Source: Brachybacterium sp. | Lineage (GTDB): Bacteria; Actinomycetota; Actinomycetes; Actinomycetales; Dermabacteraceae | Assembly (NCBI GenBank): GCA_027322375.1 | Contig: DAHVRS010000303.1 | Coordinates: forward strand, 1 to 15,265 | Reading direction: 5' to 3' | Length of the DNA: 15,265 nt | Part shown: one piece after another, positions 1,054 to 12,444 of the stretch | How the letters are laid out: each line of letters begins with the position of its first letter | Numbering within the stretch: the first letter of the stretch is position 1 | The notes under the pieces: model-generated | What the model was told of the DNA's origin: nothing | Databases searched by the model: none | What the model saw: only the letters and a program-made list of their open reading frames with translations | Position numbers and translations under genes: made by a program

Positions 1054-2394
1054 TCAGAAGCGCGACCGGCGCTCCTCGAGCTGCTGCCGCAGCGACCTGC
1101 CCTGCCCCTCGTCGGGACGCGTGGCGAGGGCCGCGGCGATCGCGGTGGTCAGCGGGATCGCGAGCACCAGGCCGATCGAGGCGATGAGCGTCCGGAAGAT
1201 CTCCGCGGCGATCTCGCCGGAGGTGAGGGTGTCCATCAGGGAGCGGTTGATGGTGCTCGCGTACATCAGCAGCGGCAGGGCGGAACCGATGTAGGCGTAG
1301 GCCAGGGTGTAGACGGTCGAGGCGATGTGGTCGCGGCCGATCCGCATGGTGGCGGTGAACACCTCGAGGCGGGAGGCCTGCGGCATCGCCGCCCGCAGCT
1401 CCCAGGCGGAGGAGGCCTGGGTGATGGTGACGTCGTTGAGCGCACCGAGCCCCGAGATAATCACGCCGGCCAGGAACACCGTGGACAGCGAGAGATGCGG
1501 GTGGGTGGAGTACAGGATCTGCGCGGCCTCCCCGTCGGCCCCCGTCATGCCGGTGGGCCGTCCGGCGGCCAGTGCGATCAGCACCGTCACCGCGATCCCG
1601 CCGAAGGTGCCCAGCACCGCGGTGGTGGTGCGCACCGAGATGCCGTGCGCGAAGTAGACGCAGGGGAAGATCATCGCCGAGGCCGCGACCAGCGCCACCC
1701 GGACGGCGTTCTCCCCGGCGAAGATGGCCGGCAGCATGAACCACAGCACGATCGCGACACCGGCGGCGAGGCCCGCCATCGCTCGCAGACCGCTCCCGCG
1801 CGCGACCAGCGCCACCAGCAGCAGATAGGCCAGCAGCAGGAGGCCCAGCGGCAGCGTGCGGTCGTGATCGAAGTAGTACAGCGCCTGCGCGGCCTCGCCG
1901 CTCTCGCCGCTGGGAGCGCCGACGCGCAGCACCCGGATCCGATCTCCCTCGTGGATCCCTCCGGACGCGACCTCGGGCGGCACCTCGACGGAGAGGGTCC
2001 GGTCCTCTAGCGGTGCGGCGCGGCCCACGGCCTCGATCACCGCGATCTCGTCGGCGCTCGCCGCAGGGGAGGTGCTGGTGACCGTGGCCGGCACGATCTC
2101 CACGCCCGGGGCGAGGAACTCGGCGCTGTCCACCCGGGCGTCGGGTCCGGGCCACAGCATGGCCACACCGATCGCCGTGGCGAGCAGCAACGCCCCGGTG
2201 AGGGCTGCGAGCACGGTCCGGGCACGGCGGCCGACGGGCGCTGCCACGCCGCCGGAGGCGTGGGAGTGCGCGTGGGAATGGGAGTGTCCGTGCGAGTGGG
2301 CTGCGGCCGACGCCGGCTCGCGCCTCGGCAGCGGCTCGCGCGTCGGAGCTGCCGGGTCGCCGTCGCGCCGGGCGCGCTTGCCGCGGGTCACCAC
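1054..2394 (-). CDS. YibE/F-family membrane protein with His-rich N-terminus
   Basis: The 446-aa product has a basic cytoplasmic-type start, a histidine cluster at residues 33-45 (HSHGHSHSHAHSH, seven His), a membrane segment at about 60-80, an extracytoplasmic beta-like domain at about 85-175 containing the V-x-V-x-x-G-D-R-I-R pattern at 146-155, then roughly seven further membrane segments between 181 and 424. The core pattern (HPHLSLSTVFLAGVIISGLGALNDV near 298-321, and TSTVYT-like and YAYIGSALPLL stretches) is that of the YibE/F family, found in many Gram-positive bacteria and without a settled biochemical role. The start overlaps the end of the acyl-CoA reductase gene: GTG at 2392-2394 or, giving a GTGA stop/start overlap, GTG at 2389-2391. 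Translation is therefore probably coupled. The His tail could bind metal ions; that is inference. The start is uncertain by one codon. Confidence 0.85.
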   Translation of the reverse strand: MVTRGKRARRDGDPAAPTREPLPRREPASAAAHSHGHSHSHAHSHASGGVAAPVGRRARTVLAALTGALLLATAIGVAMLWPGPDARVDSAEFLAPGVEIVPATVTSTSPAASADEIAVIEAVGRAAPLEDRTLSVEVPPEVASGGIHEGDRIRVLRVGAPSGESGEAAQALYYFDHDRTLPLGLLLLAYLLLVALVARGSGLRAMAGLAAGVAIVLWFMLPAIFAGENAVRVALVAASAMIFPCVYFAHGISVRTTTAVLGTFGGIAVTVLIALAAGRPTGMTGADGEAAQILYSTHPHLSLSTVFLAGVIISGLGALNDVTITQASSAWELRAAMPQASRLEVFTATMRIGRDHIASTVYTLAYAYIGSALPLLMYASTINRSLMDTLTSGEIAAEIFRTLIASIGLVLAIPLTTAIAAALATRPDEGQGRSLRQQLEERRSRF

Positions 2395-4661
2395 TCGAGG
2401 ATCTGCCAGCGCTTCTTCTTCGCCACCGCGTACAGGCCCAGGTCCGGTGCGACCGCGGCGGGGGTGCCCACGAGCGAGAGCCAGGCGGCGTCCGCGTGGG
2501 AGTCGCCGTAGCCGTAGGAGGTGGACAGGTCCGCTCCGTGCAGGTCCGCGTACTTCCGCAGCCAGTTCGCGCGAGCCTCGTCGACCAGCGGAGGAGTGGC
2601 GAGGAAGCCGGTCATCACACCATTCTCGTCCTCGTCCATGTGGGTGGCCACGACCTCGTCGAAGAGGTCCGCGAGCGGCGCGACGAGTACGTCCAGCGCG
2701 CCGGAGACGAGCACGGTGCGGTGCCCGGCGGCGCGGTGGCGCTCGATGGTCTCCAGCGCCTCGGGGCGGATCGAGGCGCGGATTCGGCGTCCGGCCTCCC
2801 CGTCCATGAGGGCGCGCAGCTCAGCGCTGCGGAAGCCCTTGTATCGGCGGTTGACCAGGCGGATCAGCTCGGAGCGGTCGCGCTGGTCGGCGCGCAGGTA
2901 GCCGGGGACCGCGGCGAGCAGGCCGCCGATCTCGGCGGGCCAGGTGCGGCGCGGCTTCGTCGCGCGGACCACGGCGAAGTACTGCTGGACGATGTTCGTG
3001 GCGAGCACGGTGCCGTCCAGGTCGAAGATCGCCAGCGAGTTCTCCGAGGGCTTCAGCTGCGGGGCGGGACGGTCCGCACGGCGCTTCTGCGCGGACTTCG
3101 CCCGCGAGTACGCCTTGGTCAGCTCAGTGACGGCGGGCAGGTGCTGCTTCTGGAAGTAGTCCTTCCATACGATCTTCGTGATGTCGAAGTCGTGGGTCTC
3201 GAGGAACTCCGCGGGCAGCTCCGCGCGCAGCGCGCGGGTGTTCGCGTCATCGAAGACCATCTCGGTCTTCGTGTAGTGGCGGTACAGCTCGATGTACTTG
3301 CGCAGCATCGTCAGGCCCGAGGTGGCCTTGTGCAGGCCGGAGGTCCACTCGCGGGTGCGCTTGGTGGCGGGGAGATATGCGACGGCGGCCGCGCCGAGCT
3401 TCGCGCCGAGCTCCTTGGCGCGGAATCGCTGCTCGACCATCTCGACGGCGGGGAAGGACCACTCGGGCACCTGGATCGGGCGGCCCTTGTCGTCCTCGAG
3501 GGGGTGCTCGGTGAAGTACTCGCGCACCGCCGTGACCATCTCGTGGAAGGGCAGCGGGTTCGAGGCGCCGGAGACCACCTGGTAGTAGGCCTCGTCGCCG
3601 CGGCGGGAGACGTCCTGGGTGGCGAGCGCGACGATCACGTTCACGACATGGTCCACGGGGATCACGTCGAGGATCGAGTCGGCCAGGCCCGGGAACTCGG
3701 GCAGCATGCCGCGGCCGTACGCCATGATCAGCGGGTCGGCGACCTTGTAGCCGTCGATCCAGCCCGGGTAGGGCTTCTTCATGGCGGACTCGATGATCGA
3801 GGGCCGCACGAAGGAGACGCGGTGGCCGTTGCCGGCCCACAGCTCCTCGGCGACCTGCTCCGCCATCGCCTTGGTGAAGGTGTAGATGTCGGTCCAGCCC
3901 ACGGACTGGGCGCGGGTGCGGCCGAAGTCGATCAGACGCTCGGTGACCCAGTCGCGGCGCGCGTCCTCGCTGGTGGCGGCGACGGTCTTCGGGCCCATGC
4001 GGCCCACCTGCAGCTTCGCGGCACGGATCTGGGAGCGCAGCGTCTCCGGCTTGCGGGACTCCGCCTCCACGCGGGCGCGGGCGGCGAGCGCCGCGTCGTA
4101 CTCGGCGCGCCAGTCGACGTCGGCCCGCAGGGAGCCCTCCTGGCGCAGGCCCTTGGAGATGCCGCCGACATAGGCGGTGGAGACGTGGATGACGTGCGGG
4201 TCCTGGCCGGAGGCGAGGAGTGCCTCGTAGAGGTTCTGCGCACCGCCGACGTTCGTGCGGAACGCCTCGTCGATCGGCGGGTCGAAGGAGACCGAGGACG
4301 CGGAGTGGATGACGGTGTCGACGGGCTCGGTGATCTCGGGCATGTCGGTGAGGTCGCCCTCGAGCACGCCCACCCGGGTGTCGAAGATCTCCTTCAGCTG
4401 AGCCTTCCCGTCGGCTCCCAGCTCCTCCGCCCAGGAGGCGAAGACGGGCTTGCGCAGCAGCTGCTCGAGGCGCTTGCGGCCGGTGACCGAACCCTTGGGG
4501 CGCACGACGGCGGTGACGTGCACGTCCTCGGTGGTCTCCAGCAGGGAACGGAGCACGGCCTGGCCGAGGAAGCCGGTGACTCCGGTGAGGAGGATCCTCC
4601 GACCCCCGCGAGGAGCGACGCCATCGGCGGTCGATGCGGCAGGGGTGGTGGTGTGCGTCAT
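2388..4661 (-). CDS. Fatty acyl-CoA reductase fused to HAD-IB phosphatase-like domain
   Basis: The 757-aa product joins two enzymes. Residues 20 to about 380 are an extended SDR of the NAD_binding_4 / male-sterility type: the nucleotide loop TGVTGFLG (26-33), HSASSVSFDPP (119-129), the catalytic-type STAY (161-164) and YTFTK (Tyr260, Lys264). Residues about 440-515 (NTRALRAELPAEF, DFDITKIVWKDYF) resemble the 'sterile' C-terminal domain of alcohol-forming fatty acyl-CoA reductases. These enzymes reduce acyl-CoA with NADPH to fatty alcohol. Residues about 540-757 are a HAD-IB domain: FDLDGTV (motif I, Asp547/Asp549), LVSGA (Ser653) and GYGDSHAD (Asp720, Asp724). All catalytic positions seem intact in both halves. 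The ATG at 4661 follows AGAGGA. It is the first gene of a minus-strand unit with YibE/F and is divergent from the SDR-PlsC-flavoprotein operon, which supports ether-lipid metabolism. The substrate of the HAD half is unknown. Confidence 0.88.
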   Translation of the reverse strand: MTHTTTPAASTADGVAPRGGRRILLTGVTGFLGQAVLRSLLETTEDVHVTAVVRPKGSVTGRKRLEQLLRKPVFASWAEELGADGKAQLKEIFDTRVGVLEGDLTDMPEITEPVDTVIHSASSVSFDPPIDEAFRTNVGGAQNLYEALLASGQDPHVIHVSTAYVGGISKGLRQEGSLRADVDWRAEYDAALAARARVEAESRKPETLRSQIRAAKLQVGRMGPKTVAATSEDARRDWVTERLIDFGRTRAQSVGWTDIYTFTKAMAEQVAEELWAGNGHRVSFVRPSIIESAMKKPYPGWIDGYKVADPLIMAYGRGMLPEFPGLADSILDVIPVDHVVNVIVALATQDVSRRGDEAYYQVVSGASNPLPFHEMVTAVREYFTEHPLEDDKGRPIQVPEWSFPAVEMVEQRFRAKELGAKLGAAAVAYLPATKRTREWTSGLHKATSGLTMLRKYIELYRHYTKTEMVFDDANTRALRAELPAEFLETHDFDITKIVWKDYFQKQHLPAVTELTKAYSRAKSAQKRRADRPAPQLKPSENSLAIFDLDGTVLATNIVQQYFAVVRATKPRRTWPAEIGGLLAAVPGYLRADQRDRSELIRLVNRRYKGFRSAELRALMDGEAGRRIRASIRPEALETIERHRAAGHRTVLVSGALDVLVAPLADLFDEVVATHMDEDENGVMTGFLATPPLVDEARANWLRKYADLHGADLSTSYGYGDSHADAAWLSLVGTPAAVAPDLGLYAVAKKKRWQILEW

Positions 4662-4773
4662 GGGATCCTCTGTGGACGGTGGCGGCGGGGCGAGGGGGCC
4701 GGTGCCCGGCGCGGTCCGGGCCGCTCTGCGGCGCTCCCACCTGGGTGCTTCTCCGCGCTGGTCAGGGCGGCGC

Positions 4774-4785
4774 TAGTGTATCGTA
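4774..4785. promoter_or_regulatory. Divergent promoter core shared by reductase and SDR operons
   Basis: The bases TATCGTA at 4779-4785 contain a TAnnnT -10 element on both strands: TATCGT (4779-4784, plus) and TACGAT (4785-4780, minus). The plus-strand element would start transcription at about 4791-4792, the A of the SDR start codon, giving a leaderless mRNA; this agrees with the absence of a ribosome-binding site before that ATG. The minus-strand element would give a leader of about 110 nt for the acyl-CoA reductase gene. A second plus-strand candidate, TAGTGT (4774-4779), overlaps. No clear -35 hexamers are visible. Confidence 0.4.
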
Positions 4786-4791
4786 GCGGCC

Positions 4792-5568
4792 ATGCATAGG
4801 GCCCTGATCACCGGCGGCACTGCAGGCATCGGGGCGGCTTTCGCCAGGGCGTTCGCCGGACGGGGGACCTCCCTCGTGCTGGTCGCGCGGGACCCCGCGC
4901 GCCTGGAGGAATCCGCCCAGACGCTGCGTCGCGAGCACGGCGTTGAGGTCGAGACGATGGTCGCGGACCTGTCCGATCGCGACGCCCAGCAGAAGGTCGC
5001 CGACCGCCTCGAGTCCGAGACCGATCCCGTCGACGTCTTCGTCAACAACGCAGGCTTCTCCGTGCGCTCGAGCCTGCTGGACCCCGACCTCACCCAGCAC
5101 GACCTCGGCTTCGAGGTGATGATCCGCGCCGTCCTCAAGCTGGGCGGTGCCGCCGGCCGCGCCATGAGCTCGCGCGGGCACGGCTGGATCATCAACGTCG
5201 GCTCCGTCTCGGCGCTGGTCACCCAGAACAACTACTCGGCCATCAAGGCGTGGGTGGGCAACTACTCCGAGTCCCTCGGCGTGCAGCTGGCCGGCACCGG
5301 CGTGAAGGTCGCTGCGCTCATGCCCGGCTGGGTCCGCACCGAGTTCCACTCCCGCGCCGGGATCAAGGGCTCCTCCATCCCGGGCGTGCTCTGGCTGGAC
5401 GCGGACCGTCTGGTCGAGGACTGCCTGCGCGATGTCGCCCGTGGCAAGCCCGTCTCCATCCCCTCGAAGCGCTGGAAGCTGATCTCCGCCGTGCTGCGCA
5501 CCACGCCGCGCGGCCTCGTCGCGAGGCTCAGCGCGCTGCTCAGCCACCGCCGCAACCGGGAGAAGTGA
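4792..5568 (+). CDS. Classical short-chain dehydrogenase/reductase (SDR)
   Basis: The 258-aa product is a full-length classical SDR: cofactor loop TGGTAGIG (7-14), Asp59 in VADLSD, NNAG (85-88), GSVS (137-140) with the catalytic Ser, YSAIK (Tyr148, Lys152) and PGWVRT (178-183). Arg33 after VA suggests NADPH preference. The C-terminus (about 225-258) is basic and amphipathic, so the enzyme may sit on the membrane. It is the first gene of a plus-strand operon, 4 bp before the acyltransferase. Relatives with this profile include mycobacterial Rv2509/CmrA-like lipid ketone reductases. In this context a role as acyl/alkyl-DHAP reductase is plausible, because the animal enzyme for that step (PexRAP/DHRS7B) is also an SDR. 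That role is inferred; the reductase family is certain. No ribosome-binding site precedes the ATG, which suggests leaderless translation. Confidence 0.88.
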   Translation: MHRALITGGTAGIGAAFARAFAGRGTSLVLVARDPARLEESAQTLRREHGVEVETMVADLSDRDAQQKVADRLESETDPVDVFVNNAGFSVRSSLLDPDLTQHDLGFEVMIRAVLKLGGAAGRAMSSRGHGWIINVGSVSALVTQNNYSAIKAWVGNYSESLGVQLAGTGVKVAALMPGWVRTEFHSRAGIKGSSIPGVLWLDADRLVEDCLRDVARGKPVSIPSKRWKLISAVLRTTPRGLVARLSALLSHRRNREK

Positions 5569-5572
5569 TCGC

Positions 5573-6388
5573 GTGACCGCCGAGGACTCACCCAAGGACC
5601 TCTCGCCCAAGGCGCCCGCCAGCGCGAAGCGGCTGCTGGGCTCGCTCTCCGCGCGCTCGCGCGGCGAGGGCTGGGAGAAGCCGACGGGGGAGCTGGCGAA
5701 GTACCGCTCCCGCTGGCGCGCCGCGATGCGCTTCGGTCTCCAGCGGATCGCGTTCCGGGCCGTGGTGAACTCCGCCGTGACCCCGCAGGTTCGGGTGCAC
5801 CGCCGCGTGAAGAGCATCCGCGGCCCCTTCGTGCTGGTCGCGAACCACACCAGCCACGTCGACGGCCCGCTGCTGGCGATGAGCCTGCCCTGGACGCAGG
5901 CCCGCTTCCTCAGCACAGGGGTGGCCGCGGACTACTGGTTCGATCACTGGCATCGTCGGCTCTTCGTGCGACTGATGATGAACGCCTTCCCGATCGATCG
6001 CGGCGGCTCCCGCAAGCATTCGGGCACCTCCCGGAGGCTGTTGCGCGCGGGCGTACCGATCCTGGTGTTCCCCGAGGGCGGCCGCCAGCAGACGGGCCGC
6101 ATGGCGGACTTCAAGCCGGGCGGCGCGGCGCTCGCGATCGGGGTGGGCGTGCCCGTCGTGCCCGCGGCGATCATCGGCGGCTACGAGGCGATGCCCAAGG
6201 GCCGCTCCTGGCCCGTGCCCGGCCGTCCGCCGGTCCGCGTGGTCTTCGGGGATCCGATGATCGCGCATGAGGACGAGTCCGCCGTCGACTTCTCGACGCG
6301 GATCCATGACAGGGTGGCCGCTCTGTACGAGGAGCACCACGACGAGGTCCTGGGCAGCGCTGTCCGGGACGAGGAGGGAAACGCATGA
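5573..6388 (+). CDS. PlsC-type glycerophosphate acyltransferase
   Basis: The 271-aa product carries the lysophospholipid acyltransferase (PlsC) signature: NHTSHVD (HX4D, His92 and Asp97), a basic middle region with DRGGSRK (142-148), VFPEGGRQ (165-172) in place of the more usual FPEGTR/S, and VPVVPA (193-198). Such enzymes transfer an acyl chain from acyl-CoA or acyl-ACP to a glycerol-phosphate backbone at the inner membrane face. There is a 70-residue N-terminal extension rich in basic residues before the catalytic block, and no clear membrane helix. The GTG start at 5573 follows GGGAGAAG at the end of the SDR gene, and the stop overlaps the flavoprotein start (ATGA). The position between an SDR and an alkyl-DHAP-synthase-like gene makes DHAP or 1-alkyl-glycerol-3-phosphate possible acceptors, but ordinary lysophosphatidic acid acyltransferase activity cannot be excluded. 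Confidence 0.87.
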   Translation: MTAEDSPKDLSPKAPASAKRLLGSLSARSRGEGWEKPTGELAKYRSRWRAAMRFGLQRIAFRAVVNSAVTPQVRVHRRVKSIRGPFVLVANHTSHVDGPLLAMSLPWTQARFLSTGVAADYWFDHWHRRLFVRLMMNAFPIDRGGSRKHSGTSRRLLRAGVPILVFPEGGRQQTGRMADFKPGGAALAIGVGVPVVPAAIIGGYEAMPKGRSWPVPGRPPVRVVFGDPMIAHEDESAVDFSTRIHDRVAALYEEHHDEVLGSAVRDEEGNA

Positions 6389-8091
6389 GTGATCGGCTGA
6401 GCGCCCGCGAGGTCAAGCGTCACAAGTGGTGGGGGTGGGGCCTGGACGACGTCACCTTCCGCTACGACAACAAGCCGGCGTTCCCGAAGCTCGCGAAGAA
6501 CAAGGTGGGCGTCGACCTCGACTCGAAGCAGCCGGTCGAGCCCGTGCTCACCGATCACGAGGTCCCCGCCTCGCGCCTGCCCGCGGAGACCCGGGCGAAG
6601 CTCGTCGCGCTGGTCGGCGAGGAGAACCTGCTCGATGACGACGAGTACCGCGTCGTGCACTCCTTCGGCCGCTCCCTGCCGGACCTGTTCCGCGTGCGGG
6701 GCGGCCACTTCGAGCGGCTCGTCGACGCGGTCGTCTACCCCGCGAACGAGGAGGAGGTCGCGGCGGTGCTGCGCCTGGTCCTGGACGAGGACCTCGTGCT
6801 GATCCCCTACGGCGGCGGCTCCTGCATCTCCGGCTCCGTCACCCCGGATGTGAACGAGAAGCGCCCGATCCTCACCATGAACCTCGGCCGCATGCGCGAG
6901 GTCATCGAGATCGACGACACCGCGGGCCTCGCCCGCGTCGAGGCCGGCGTGTACGGCCCCGACCTCGAGGAGCAGCTGAACGCGCTGGGCTGGACCGTCG
7001 GCCACTTCCCCGACTCCTTCACCTACTCGACCCTCGGCGGCTGGGCCGCGACCCGCTCCTCCGGCATGCAGTCGGACAAGTACGGGGACATCGAGGACAT
7101 CGTGCGCGGCATGCGCCTGGTCCACCCCGAGGGCGTCGCCGTCACGAAGCCGATCCCGGGCCGCGACTCCGGGCCCAGCGTGCACGAGATGATCCTGGGC
7201 AGCGAGGGCCGCCTCGGCGTGATCACGGAGGCGACCGTGCAGGTGCACCGCATCGCCCCGGTCCGCCAGGTCATCGCCTACATGTACCCCGACTGGGAGC
7301 ACGGCATCCGCGGCATGCACGCGATCGCCCGCTCCACCGACGTCCACCCCACCTTCACCCGCCTCTCCGACGGGCCGGAGACCGAGTTCAGCCTCGCCAT
7401 GGTCAAGGAGCCCACCTCCACCAAGGGCAAGGTCGCCGCGAAGGTGCAGGACGGGCTGTTCGCCTACCTGCGCTCGAAGGGCTGGGACACCACCAACGAG
7501 ATGTCGATCTCCTACGTCTGCTTCGAGGGGACGAAGGAGACGGTCGAGCACCAGAAGGCGATCGTGAAGAAGATCGTCAAGCAGTCCGGCGGCATCACGC
7601 TGGGCGCGGGCCCCGGCGCGATCTACGACCAGAAGAAGTTCGACACCCCCTACCTGCGCGACTTCCTCATGAACTACCAGGTCTTCGGCGACGTGTGCGA
7701 CACGGGCGCGACCTGGTCGAACATCAACGAGGTCCACTCCAAGGTGTACGACGCGTTCTACGCGGCGCAGGAGGAGCAGGGCCTGCCCGGCTTCATGTTC
7801 TGCCACATGTCGCACAGCTACCACGGCGGCGCGTGCCTCTACTTCACCTTCGCCTTCCCGTACACCTCGGACGAGCTGGCGCTCGAGCAGTACTACCGCG
7901 CGAAGAACGCGGTCCAGCAGACCTTCGTGGACCTCGGCTCGACCGTCTCGCACCACCACGCGGTGGGCACCGAGCACCAGCCGTGGATCACCGAGGACAT
8001 CGGCGAGGTCGGCGCACGCATGGTCCGCGGCCTCTTCGCGGACAACGATCCGGGCCGGAACCTCAACCCCGGCAAGATCCTCCCCTCCTGA
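6385..8091 (+). CDS. Alkyl-DHAP-synthase-like FAD-linked oxidase family protein
   Basis: The 568-aa product belongs to the vanillyl-alcohol-oxidase flavoprotein family and closely follows animal alkyldihydroxyacetonephosphate synthase (AGPS). The N-terminus has KWWGWG (14-19). The FAD domain has PYGGGSCISG (141-150), PDSF followed by STLGGWAATRSSG (209-227) and LGSEGRLGVITE (271-282). In the cap domain RLSDG (Arg326) lines up with the AGPS Arg (human R419) needed for activity; SHSYHGGACLYF (Tyr486) and SHHHAVG (His523-525) line up with its active-site Tyr and His triplet. These alignments are from memory. AGPS swaps the acyl chain of acyl-DHAP for a fatty alcohol, forming the ether bond, without net redox change. 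The ATGA overlap with plsC and the GAGGAGGGA ribosome site show tight coupling. A different oxidase function (D-lactate or glycolate type) is less likely given the conserved AGPS-specific blocks. Confidence 0.88.
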   Translation: MSDRLSAREVKRHKWWGWGLDDVTFRYDNKPAFPKLAKNKVGVDLDSKQPVEPVLTDHEVPASRLPAETRAKLVALVGEENLLDDDEYRVVHSFGRSLPDLFRVRGGHFERLVDAVVYPANEEEVAAVLRLVLDEDLVLIPYGGGSCISGSVTPDVNEKRPILTMNLGRMREVIEIDDTAGLARVEAGVYGPDLEEQLNALGWTVGHFPDSFTYSTLGGWAATRSSGMQSDKYGDIEDIVRGMRLVHPEGVAVTKPIPGRDSGPSVHEMILGSEGRLGVITEATVQVHRIAPVRQVIAYMYPDWEHGIRGMHAIARSTDVHPTFTRLSDGPETEFSLAMVKEPTSTKGKVAAKVQDGLFAYLRSKGWDTTNEMSISYVCFEGTKETVEHQKAIVKKIVKQSGGITLGAGPGAIYDQKKFDTPYLRDFLMNYQVFGDVCDTGATWSNINEVHSKVYDAFYAAQEEQGLPGFMFCHMSHSYHGGACLYFTFAFPYTSDELALEQYYRAKNAVQQTFVDLGSTVSHHHAVGTEHQPWITEDIGEVGARMVRGLFADNDPGRNLNPGKILPS

Positions 8092-8099
8092 GGTCGGGC

Positions 8100-8681
8100 A
8101 TGGGCTGCGTCTGGGTGCTGCGCCACGGCGAGTCCACCGCGAACGTCGAGGGCGTGATCGTCTCCGCCCCCGGTCCGCGCGCGCTCGTCGAGGTGGGGCT
8201 GACGCCGCGCGGCCGTGAGCAGGCGCGCGAGGCCGCTCGGGCGGCGCTGGAGCAGGGCCTCGGCCCGGGCACCGTGCTCATCGCGAGCGACTTCGCGCGC
8301 GCCCGGGAGACGGCGGAGGAGTTCGCCACCGGGCTCGGCGCGGAGCCGCCCCGGATCGATCAGCGCCTGCGCGAGCGCGGCTTCGGTGCGCTCGAGGAAG
8401 GGCCCGCGAGCGCGTACGACGGCGTGTGGGCCCGGGATCGCGCGCGCGAACAGCCGGCCGACGGGGTCGAGCCCGTCGGCGCGGTCGCTGCACGCGTGCG
8501 GGAGGCGCTTCTCGCGGCCGACGGACTAGCGCGTGAGTCGGGCGCCGACGTCGTCCTCGTCGCCCACGGCGATGTTCTCCAGATCGCGCTCGCTCTCGGG
8601 GCCGGCATGGATCCGCATGATCACCGGGAGGTGCCGCACCTGGGCAATGCCGAGCTGCGGGTCCTGGGCAGTGAGCGCTGA
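8100..8681 (+). CDS. Histidine phosphatase (phosphoglycerate mutase-like) family protein
   Basis: The 193-aa product is a branch-1 histidine phosphatase. The RHGE motif (8-11) supplies the phospho-accepting His9; SDFARARETAE (63-73) supplies the second Arg; LRERGFG (90-96) contains the acid/base Glu92; and VAHGD (154-158) supplies the second catalytic His156. The ATG at 8100 was chosen because it begins right before RHGE as in the family and lies 8 bp after the flavoprotein stop; the open frame extends further upstream but only inside the previous gene. The family ranges from phosphoglycerate mutases to broad-specificity phosphatases; the short size and lack of mutase-specific inserts favour a phosphatase. 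It is co-transcribed with the ether-lipid-like genes, so a phosphorylated lipid intermediate is conceivable, but no substrate can be read from the sequence. Confidence 0.87.
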   Translation: MGCVWVLRHGESTANVEGVIVSAPGPRALVEVGLTPRGREQAREAARAALEQGLGPGTVLIASDFARARETAEEFATGLGAEPPRIDQRLRERGFGALEEGPASAYDGVWARDRAREQPADGVEPVGAVAARVREALLAADGLARESGADVVLVAHGDVLQIALALGAGMDPHDHREVPHLGNAELRVLGSER

Positions 8682-10438: not shown

Positions 10439-10496
10439 GTATCCACCGTCACCGTGGACGACGCCGCGGTGAAGACAGACAAGGATGAAGGACACC

Positions 10497-11261
10497 ATGA
10501 CACTGCGCATCGCCGTCTACGGCGAGAACCGGCACGAGAAGGTCGACAAGAGGGTTCAGGAGCTGTACCCGGACGGCATGCACACCGTGATCGCGGAGGC
10601 GCTGCGGACCCTGCTCGCGGCCGACGGCATCGACGCCGAGGTGCGCATCGCCCTGCTCGACGACATCGAGGAGTCCCTCTCCGAGGAGGCGCTCGCCGAG
10701 ACCGACGTCCTCACCTGGTGGGGCCACATGGCCCACGAGGACGTGCCGGACGAGATCAGCGAGCGCGTGGTCCGCCGCGTCCACGAGGGCATGGGCTTCC
10801 TGCCGCTTCACTCCGCCCACTACTCCAAGCCCTTCAAGGCCCTCATGGGCACCACCTGCAACCTGCTGTGGCGCAACGAGGGCGAGGAGGAGCGGGTCTG
10901 GACCGTCAACGGCTCCCACCCGATCGCTCGCGGCGTGCCCCACCCGATCATCGTCCCCGAGCAGGAGATGTACGGGGAGATGTTCGACATCCCCGCACCG
11001 GACGAGCTCGTATTCGTCTCCTCCTTCGCCGGCGGCGAGGTGTTCCGCTCCGGCGCCGTGTTCCGTCGCGGCAAGGGCAAGGTGTTCTACTTCAGCCCCG
11101 GCGACCAGGAGTACCCCGTCTACCACCAGGCGGAGATCCAGCGCGTGCTCGCCAACGCCGCGGTCTGGGCCCGTCCCGAGGACCGCGAGGCGGCACCGGT
11201 GAAGATCGCCAACGCCCCCCGCGACTGGTACCGCGGCACCGAGGTCTCGCGTGTCATCTGA
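10497..11261 (+). CDS. ThuA-like (trehalose utilisation family) protein
   Basis: The 254-aa product has the ThuA domain, a glutamine-amidotransferase-like fold: MTLRIAVYGENRHE at the start, DVLTWWGHMAH (70-80), LHSAHYSKPF (104-113), QEMYGEMFDIP (156-166) and KVFYFSPGDQEYPVYH (195-210). The first methionine could also be at 10485, but AAGGA sits at the usual distance before ATG 10497 and none before the other. ThuA, with the oxidoreductase ThuB, was described in rhizobial trehalose/sucrose catabolism via 3-keto sugars. Here, too, a Gfo/Idh/MocA gene follows and overlaps by 11 bp, so a soluble two-protein system acting on a sugar or glycoside is likely. No sugar transporter is present in the window to indicate the substrate. 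Confidence 0.87.
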   Translation: MTLRIAVYGENRHEKVDKRVQELYPDGMHTVIAEALRTLLAADGIDAEVRIALLDDIEESLSEEALAETDVLTWWGHMAHEDVPDEISERVVRRVHEGMGFLPLHSAHYSKPFKALMGTTCNLLWRNEGEEERVWTVNGSHPIARGVPHPIIVPEQEMYGEMFDIPAPDELVFVSSFAGGEVFRSGAVFRRGKGKVFYFSPGDQEYPVYHQAEIQRVLANAAVWARPEDREAAPVKIANAPRDWYRGTEVSRVI

Positions 11262-12444
11262 GGCCACCCTGCTCACCAACCCGAGCCCCCGACCCACCGG
11301 CTTCCCGCGCCTGCCCGGCGACCGCCCCGCGAAGGTGGTCGTCGTCGGCGCCGGCGGGATGGGCTCGTGGTGGGCGCGCGAGATAGTCGCGAGCGACGTC
11401 GCCGAGCTCGTCGGCGTCGCGGACCTCGTCGAGGGCGCGCCCCAGAAGGTCATCGAGCAGTCCGGGGCGGAGGACCCCTCCGCGATCGCCGTCGGCACCG
11501 ACGGGGTGGACCTCGCGCTCGAGCTCGGCGCGGACCTGCTCGTGGACCCGACGGTCCCCGTCGCGCACCACCCCGTCACGGTGAAGGCGCTGCACGCCGG
11601 GATCCCCGTGCTCGGCGAGAAGCCCGTCACCGAGACGCTGCCCGAGGCGATCAGCCTCATGGCTCACTCGGAGCTGACCGGGGTGCCGTTCATGGTCTCT
11701 CAGTCCCGGCGCTTCTTCCGCCAGGTGCGGCAGCTGCGCGACTTCGTCGCGGAGCACGGGCCGACGGTGATGACCAGCGCTTTCTTCTCCCTGTTCACGG
11801 AGATGGAGGGGTACCGCCGCACGCAGGCGCATCCGTTGCTGCGCGATATGGGCATCCACGCCTTCGACACCGCGCGGTACATGCTGGGCACCGACCCGGT
11901 CGCGGTGACCGCCGTCGGTGCCCGGCCCGAGTGGAGCGTGTACAGCCACGACGCGACCGTCTCGGCGACCTTCGAGATGTCCGACGGGTCCCTCTTCGCC
12001 TACCACGGCACGTGGAACGCGCGAGGGCTCGCGACCTACTGGAACAGCGAGTGGCGGATCGGTGCACGCACCGGCTCCGCGACGTGGGACGGCAAGGGCG
12101 CGCCGGTGCTCGGCACCGAGGACGCGGAGGAGACCGCCGAGCTCCAGGCCCGGATCGACGCGGAGACCGCGCCGGAGAAGGACCAGATCGCGGCCTCCCT
12201 CGTGGAGTGCGTGAGCGCGCTGCGCGAGGGCCGCACCCCGATGTGCGAGGTCCACGAGAACCTGCTGAGCTTCGCGATGGTCGAGGCGGCCGTCGCAGCG
12301 GTTGAGACCGGCGCGCGCGTCGAGATCGATGCCCTGCTCGAGCAGGCCCGTGATGACGCGATCGCGGCGGAGACCGACCCGGCCGCGCGCGAGATCATGC
12401 AGGGCTGGCCCTCGGTGCGCGAGGCGATCCGCGCCCGCGCCTGA
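11251..12444 (+). CDS. Gfo/Idh/MocA-family oxidoreductase
   Basis: The 397-aa product has an N-terminal Rossmann domain with KVVVVGAGGMG (28-38), the dinucleotide-binding glycine motif at 33-38, then the family's GEKPVTE (122-128) with catalytic-type Lys124, and the second-domain motif DMGIHAFDTARY (199-210) with His203 and Asp206. It is a normal length for the family, which oxidises or reduces sugars and polyols with NAD(P). An N-terminal tail of about 25 residues precedes the domain. The GTG start at 11251 overlaps the ThuA-like stop, so the two are probably translated together. By analogy with ThuB, oxidation of a glycoside at C3 is plausible; the exact substrate is not visible. A strong terminator follows 16 bp after the stop. 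Confidence 0.9.
   Translation: MSSEATLLTNPSPRPTGFPRLPGDRPAKVVVVGAGGMGSWWAREIVASDVAELVGVADLVEGAPQKVIEQSGAEDPSAIAVGTDGVDLALELGADLLVDPTVPVAHHPVTVKALHAGIPVLGEKPVTETLPEAISLMAHSELTGVPFMVSQSRRFFRQVRQLRDFVAEHGPTVMTSAFFSLFTEMEGYRRTQAHPLLRDMGIHAFDTARYMLGTDPVAVTAVGARPEWSVYSHDATVSATFEMSDGSLFAYHGTWNARGLATYWNSEWRIGARTGSATWDGKGAPVLGTEDAEETAELQARIDAETAPEKDQIAASLVECVSALREGRTPMCEVHENLLSFAMVEAAVAAVETGARVEIDALLEQARDDAIAAETDPAAREIMQGWPSVREAIRARA

Follow-up and report, generated by a model that had tools for sequence, protein, structure and literature searches.

Introduction

Can an aerobic actinobacterium make ether lipids by the dihydroxyacetone phosphate (DHAP)-based route of the animal and myxobacterial type? 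The question is raised by a 15,265-nt contig stretch, DAHVRS010000303.1 (the window), which carries four neighboring genes that we call the quartet: a fatty acyl-CoA reductase (FAR) with an additional HAD domain (FAR-HAD), a short-chain dehydrogenase/reductase (SDR), a PlsC-type acyltransferase, and a homologue of alkyl-DHAP synthase (AGPS). The window is Brachybacterium-like, its nearest named relatives being Brachybacterium with AGPS identity of up to 94%, and it comes from a 2.7-Mb draft genome (G000) that is 74% complete. An earlier note on this DNA had proposed a candidate aerobic ether-lipid locus, and the proposal is supported here by the identity of the AGPS, the conserved gene set, and the co-occurrence of FAR-HAD. 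We consider it likely that the quartet makes alkyl (plasmanyl) ether lipids via an AGPS-based route. A further gene pair, F2-F1, accompanies the quartet and is new in the present analysis.

Results

The flavoprotein of the window is, by sequence, an AGPS. Its Pfam domains FAD_binding_4 (1.1e-32) and FAD-oxidase_C (1.7e-28) are both above cut-off, and a phmmer search against the PDB returned the AGPS of Dictyostelium (2uuu; 3.1e-100, 340 bits) and of guinea pig (4bby; 3.4e-84, 287 bits), with the top D-lactate dehydrogenase reaching only 69 bits. Identity to the guinea-pig enzyme is 32% across 534 aligned columns. Arg326, Arg425, Tyr486, and His523-525 align with its Arg419, Arg515, Tyr578, and His615-617, of which Arg419, Arg515, Tyr578, and His616/617 presumably have catalytic roles; the earlier note had named Arg326, Tyr486, and His523-525 as active-site residues, and the alignment bears it out. 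These residues are kept in 111-112 of 112 cluster-type loci, a set that was not de-duplicated and includes the window's own contig (L001), and the only exception is a gap. The same residues persist in 27 of the 29 rows of low identity, all of them from AGPS-like proteins in other actinobacterial genomes; the remaining two rows (L002 and L004) are pieces of a GlcD-like paralogue in the window's own genome, where the residues are mostly lost. In a tree, the window falls within a 16-row clade of cluster-type AGPS (support 100/99), near the solved AGPS enzymes and apart from the GlcD-like paralogue, although the long branches of this outgroup and of the guinea-pig row make that part of the tree weak. 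Grouping with glycolate or lactate oxidases, which the earlier note had set against an AGPS identity, was looked for and not found, whether by the PDB scores, the active-site residues, or the tree.

The Pfam searches proposed in the earlier note recovered domains of all four enzyme families that it had named. FAR-HAD carries NAD_binding_4 (1.1e-46) and the FAR C-terminal domain Sterile (4.1e-9), both above cut-off, and its closest solved relative is the fatty acyl-CoA reductase 7eoz (4.8e-47), so that it qualifies, by its domains, as an alcohol-forming FAR. A C-terminal HAD-IB phosphatase-like domain (PF12710, 7.1e-35; TIGR01490, above cut-off) had gone unmentioned before. The SDR matches adh_short (2.4e-36); its top NCBIfam match is a mycolate reductase at 153.7 bits, under the cut-off of 380, and a test for acyl/alkyl-DHAP reductases gave generic SDR matches. 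The acyltransferase matches PF01553 (9.1e-20), a family found at four places in the window's own genome, and against the PDB it scores 4.8e-13 with PlsC (5kym) and just 0.079 with glycerol-3-phosphate acyltransferase. The set is thus only putatively complete: AGPS and FAR hold by sequence, the acyltransferase is PlsC-like and missing from some loci, and the substrate of the SDR is a proposal. A partial second FAR-HAD C-terminus, 83% identical to that of the window, lies at G000:C285:3019-3450 and may reflect a strain mixture in the draft.

The quartet is a conserved unit, and its co-location is not due to chance. Our survey of conserved neighborhoods, a check suggested in the earlier note, took the best 80 of 289 confirmed stretches from a scan of genome contigs, without de-duplication, and found all four genes in the fetched flanks of 71 of the 80 loci. 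Alongside AGPS, FAR-HAD was present in 74, the SDR in 79, and PlsC in 76; three loci with misses (L029, L054, L082) stop at a contig edge. Among representative loci, full quartets occur in nine families: Dermabacteraceae, Brevibacteriaceae, Micrococcaceae, Ruaniaceae, Jiangellaceae, Allobogoriellaceae, Microbacteriaceae, Streptomycetaceae, and Intrasporangiaceae. The Propionibacteriaceae loci seen each miss one member. The orientation of FAR is flipped in Jiangella, Georgenia, and Ruania, among others. Besides the quartet and F1/F2, no neighboring family recurs in more than 5 of 26 loci, the commonest being a regulator that looks TetR-like (5/26; labeled by its look). One locus (L037), in a record titled Kocuria sp. 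36, has AGPS, FAR, and F2 that score as Brevibacterium-like, unlike those of other Kocuria, pointing to either transfer or mislabeling.

Co-occurrence was examined in 297 genomes of the window's order, with cluster-type AGPS counted at E <= 1e-150 (a cut of our choosing; the next weaker match stands at 6.6e-118) and FAR-HAD at E <= 1e-100. Cluster-type AGPS is present in 62 genomes and FAR-HAD in 71, the latter in 62 of the 62 genomes with that AGPS versus 9 of the 235 without it. The two genes lie within 12 kb of each other in 46 of the 62; in the other 16, they are on different contigs or farther apart, including three genomes where they share a contig at a distance of 0.68-1.43 Mb (G464, G505, G437). 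With the 46 linked genomes excluded, FAR-HAD is found in 16/16 versus 9/235 (p = 2.8e-19, a value that overstates independence, as do the others here, because the genomes are related). The linkage of these enzymes into one pathway, which the earlier note had drawn by inference, is better backed because FAR-HAD is present in every order genome with this AGPS, 16 times without being side by side with it. In a phylum-wide sample, an AGPS-like match at E <= 1e-40 was found in 85 of 396 genomes.

The F2-F1 pair lies near the quartet in eight genera. In the window's own genome, it is on another contig (G000:C240, locus L173), where F2 (1602-2522) and F1 (2524-3312) are separated by a single base. 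F1 has the ligands of a diiron site and a predicted fold, a ferritin-like bundle of helices, that is the one of acyl-acyl carrier protein (ACP) desaturases, and diiron families are among the matches listed in fold searches with it; F2 is a degenerate paralogue and partner of F1. Identity of F1 to soluble acyl-ACP desaturases is 12-19% over aligned residues, and the sole F1 scanned, that of L049, reached 20.4 bits with PF03405 (FA_desaturase_2), under the cut-off of 22.7. Two F1 genes, one mis-called in frame (L066) and one cut by a contig end (L045), were counted as present from tblastn; apparent F1/F2 members in L069 and L074 were not backed by tblastn and were dropped as gene-calling artifacts.

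At E <= 1e-15, F1 is present in 42 of the 297 order genomes, comprising 37 of the 62 with cluster-type AGPS and 5 of the 235 without. The two genes are within 15 kb in 16 of the 37 and not in the other 21, and the association persists when linked genomes are excluded (p = 1.2e-14, a significance inflated by kinship). At the genus level, cluster-type AGPS occurs in 10 of 12 F1 genera (p = 5e-8). Within the window's genus, F1 turned up in 15 of 19 genomes, its own included, and elsewhere in the family in 0 of 4. Where Brachybacterium genomes are near-complete or in one contig, F1 and AGPS are widely separated, by about 1.0 Mb in G503, for instance. Dermabacter hominis has the quartet with no F1 in its vicinity. 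Five F1 genomes have no cluster-type AGPS, which speaks against F1 depending strictly on it. Two of them (G398, G429) have FAR-HAD, in a neighborhood that holds PlsC and genes resembling an MDR dehydrogenase and LarA and no AGPS. The other three (G225, G268, G623) carry F2-F1 without FAR-HAD, and G268 has an AGPS-like protein of another kind (37% identity). As side observations with genes named by eye, two loci from genomes without cluster-type AGPS (L187:8606-14592 and L188:562-6523) have an MDR alcohol dehydrogenase-like gene between FAR-HAD and PlsC, joined in L187 by a LarA-like gene, and perhaps serve a different lipid route. F2-F1 also stands at L174:7151-8772 and L175:7139-8865 in genomes without FAR-HAD and cluster-type AGPS, with the L174 pair adjoining an mfd-like gene.

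Acid methanolysis of vinyl ethers yields dimethylacetals, the signature of plasmalogens, and Subtercola is the one genus that links dimethylacetals to these genes. AGPS, F1, and an F2-like match were each found in 12 of 12 Subtercola genomes searched, with the F2-like gene about 5.5 kb from F1. S. lobariae (L083) has the quartet, F1, and F2; in the other 11 genomes, the search covered AGPS, F1, and the F2-like gene. Around F1 and FAR-HAD in the Subtercola cluster (L083:707-5052), we also saw a diacylglycerol-kinase-like gene, a second PlsC, and a Lar_N protein. Four Subtercola species are listed with the dimethylacetals i-16:0 (6.9-17.0% of peak area), a-15:0 (3.2-11.0%), and a-17:0 (1.9-4.0%) in Table 2 of a paper on Subtercola vilae (PMC5945732), and with i-15:0 included, our own sums over that table come to 20.7-28.6% of peak area. 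Unsaturated acids are represented in the table only by a-15:1, at trace level in S. boreus, and 14:0 2-OH is given for S. lobariae and not for the other three species (PMC5945732); the S. lobariae data are cited there from Si et al. 2017. In the same source, Agreia is credited with a single dimethylacetal of no more than 4%, and Frondihabitans with none (PMC5945732).

Two domains of other plasmalogen systems were searched for in these genomes. A match to PF09989, a PlsA-like domain that we take to be part of the anaerobic PlsA, was found in 0 of 8 genomes, including S. lobariae, two Frigoribacterium, and the 74%-complete own genome, with matches in 4 of 14 control genomes. PF10520, the CarF/PEDS1 domain, gave 0/1 in one search and 0/8 in a set including S. 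lobariae; it matched 0 of 14 control genomes, leaving that search with no positive control.

The layout of the window is given in Table 1. The gene order and spacing of the earlier note are as it described them, with a gap of 4 bases from the SDR stop to the PlsC start and an overlap of 4 bases between PlsC and AGPS. Several neighbors were considered as members of the cluster and rejected. A YibE/F membrane protein (1054-2394), with 7 bases shared between its start and the stop of FAR-HAD, is probably a chance neighbor, as a YibE/F gene next to FAR was present in the fetched flanks of only one of the 80 loci (L030). The downstream histidine-phosphatase, esterase, ThuA, and Gfo/Idh genes have matches almost only in Brachybacterium-type loci; tblastn places the presumed histidine-phosphatase, whose family we assign from its look, in such loci and, as a partial match, in L054. 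ThuA was seen in 18 of 80 loci, every one a close relative of the window. The ThuA-like and Gfo/Idh/MocA-like genes of the window (10485-12444) overlap by 11 bases and are likely an unrelated sugar-catabolism pair.

Table 1. Features of the quartet and its surroundings in the window
Feature	Position	Strand	Basis
FAR-HAD: alcohol-forming fatty acyl-CoA reductase with HAD-IB phosphatase-like domain, 757 aa	2388..4661	-	Pfam/NCBIfam, PDB 7eoz
Divergent intergenic region, 130 bases, between the FAR-HAD and SDR-PlsC-AGPS transcription units	4662..4791	.	Coordinates
SDR, proposed acyl/alkyl-DHAP reductase, 258 aa	4792..5568	+	adh_short; substrate inferred
PlsC-type acyltransferase, proposed for DHAP or 1-alkyl-glycerol-3-phosphate, 271 aa	5573..6388	+	PF01553, PDB 5kym
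AGPS homologue (alkyl-DHAP synthase), 568 aa	6385..8091	+	PDB 2uuu, 4bby; residues; tree
Gene presumed histidine-phosphatase-like (phosphoglycerate-mutase family), probably non-core	8100..8681	+	Frame from first ATG

Discussion

The enzyme families, the active-site residues of AGPS, the conserved neighborhood, the co-occurrence, and the predicted fold of F1 are observations made here, and from them we infer every reaction of the following scheme, the substrate of each enzyme, and the occurrence of ether lipids in these cells. The quartet would form the core of an aerobic, DHAP-based ether-lipid pathway. The FAR domain would reduce a fatty acyl-CoA, probably branched, to the alcohol, and an acyltransferase, either the PlsC-type enzyme of the cluster or another, would supply 1-acyl-DHAP. 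The AGPS homologue would then use its FAD to put the alcohol in place of the acyl group, giving 1-alkyl-DHAP, and the SDR would reduce the ketone to 1-alkyl-glycerol-3-phosphate, with acylation at sn-2 leading on to plasmanyl lipids. The HAD domain may dephosphorylate a lipid phosphate intermediate, which is the least certain step. F2-F1, encoded elsewhere in the own genome and in many relatives, may add the vinyl-ether double bond with O2 and so yield plasmalogens.

Several observations weigh against the production of ether lipids by the quartet. FAR-HAD was not found near AGPS in L074, L079, and L080, nor PlsC in the cluster in L051, L055, and L059 (Propionibacteriaceae), despite sufficient flanks in all of them, and the acyltransferase itself looks PlsC-like rather than GNPAT-like. 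Nine order genomes have FAR-HAD without cluster-type AGPS, and 23 of the 62 AGPS genomes belong to the window's own family, adding to the kinship noted above. Phylum-wide, cluster-type AGPS is rare (3/396 at E <= 1e-150, own genome included), and a different subfamily of AGPS-like proteins that keeps the active-site residues is widespread without the quartet. A literature search, judged by title or abstract, found no lipid data for Brachybacterium. Disruption of AGPS in Myxococcus xanthus is described as lowering ether lipids only slightly (PMC9131029), which argues that an AGPS homologue need not be the main ether-lipid route.

The flavoprotein might instead be a flavin dehydrogenase for D-lactate, glycolate, or a lipid hydroxy-acid, in a cluster devoted to general lipid or hydroxy-acid metabolism. 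Its two domains are common to GlcD, and its top NCBIfam match is indeed glcD, at 118 bits and below the cut-off of 568; however, the PDB scores favor AGPS severalfold, the active-site residues so constant in the cluster-type loci are mostly lost in the own GlcD-like paralogue, and the tree and the invariable co-occurrence with FAR speak for AGPS as well, so that we regard this alternative as very unlikely. We give similarly little credence to a locus for wax esters or free fatty alcohols, in which the PlsC-type enzyme would esterify the FAR alcohol and AGPS and the SDR would be peripheral. A FAR and an acyltransferase would in principle be sufficient, but the acyltransferase matches PlsC, no gene accompanies AGPS as constantly as the SDR, and no family beyond F1/F2 passes the 5/26 mark in the neighborhood (wax synthase was not searched genome-wide).

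For F2-F1, we tentatively suggest a third, previously undescribed vinyl-ether-forming route, with chances that we judge somewhat short of even: a non-CarF soluble diiron desaturase with a catalytically dead partner, acting downstream of the AGPS pathway in aerobic actinobacteria and giving rise to the Subtercola dimethylacetals. Such a desaturase would explain the cluster membership, the unlinked co-occurrence, and the desaturase-like fold, as well as the combination of saturated fatty acids and dimethylacetals in Subtercola. We hold it nearly as likely that the quartet makes alkyl ether lipids while F1/F2 acts otherwise, in chain desaturation or hydroxylation or in aldehyde oxidation, and that the dimethylacetals arise via another route. 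ACP thioesters are the substrates of the known enzymes in the F1 fold family. The genomes that keep F1 without cluster-type AGPS, three of them also without FAR-HAD, weigh against a vinyl-ether role, and we know of no report of dimethylacetals from Brachybacterium, although F1 is present there. Against such another role of F1/F2, the tabulated acids of Subtercola are saturated bar the one trace, with no chain-desaturase product visible and dimethylacetals abundant. The hydroxy acid is listed for only one of the four species, whereas F1 is found throughout the genus, and the searches for PF09989 and for PF10520 (the latter with no positive control), both weak tests, each gave no match in 8 genomes.

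The closest known system is the MXAN_1676-1674 operon of M. xanthus, likewise from an aerobe, which is described as encoding AGPS together with FAR and acyltransferase domains and a protein of the NAD-dependent dehydrogenase family (PMC9131029). In that operon, the fusion partner of FAR is a GNPAT-like acyltransferase, and the third protein belongs to the epimerase/dehydratase family (PMC9131029). In the window, FAR is fused to HAD, the PlsC-type acyltransferase is a separate gene, and the dehydrogenase is a classical SDR. By the same account, M. xanthus additionally uses ElbD and CarF; AGPS contributes to ether lipids, ElbD is the main route, and CarF forms the vinyl bond (PMC9131029). The animal peroxisomal route (FAR1, GNPAT, AGPS, AGNPR/PexRAP, PEDS1) has the same proposed order of activities and shares the AGPS active-site residues, but the acyltransferase here looks PlsC-like rather than of the GNPAT type, orthology of the SDR is only a proposal, and no CarF/PEDS1-type domain was found in the 9 genomes searched (with no positive control). 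The anaerobic PlsA/PlsR system also yields plasmalogens, and its genes are described from some Actinobacteria (PMC9702350). It reduces the acyl ester of a finished phospholipid without AGPS, and PF09989 gave no match in the eight genomes searched here. F1 differs from soluble acyl-ACP desaturases (FA_desaturase_2) in coming with a degenerate partner.

AGPS homologues in Actinobacteria have already been reported from Black Sea metagenomes (PMC11868695). Our literature search, by title and abstract, found no description of this actinobacterial cluster, although subscription journals were thinly covered and its absence is unproven. Ether lipids have been reported from Rubrobacter, on which our literature search listed no paper, and Mycobacterium tuberculosis has a gene annotated as agpS. 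One review treats the aerobic bacterial route as a myxobacterial exception (PMC9131029), and another assigns the plasmalogens of bacteria to anaerobes and a number of facultative anaerobes (PMC9702350). The actinobacterial set, present in 62 of 297 order genomes (23 of them from the window's own family) and in 3 of 396 phylum-wide, would give the aerobic route a second bacterial home, and it offers concrete candidate genes for the Subtercola dimethylacetals. Were F1/F2 indeed to form the vinyl ether, the pair would represent a new class of enzymes for making that bond and a soluble equivalent of PEDS1, the membrane enzyme of humans.

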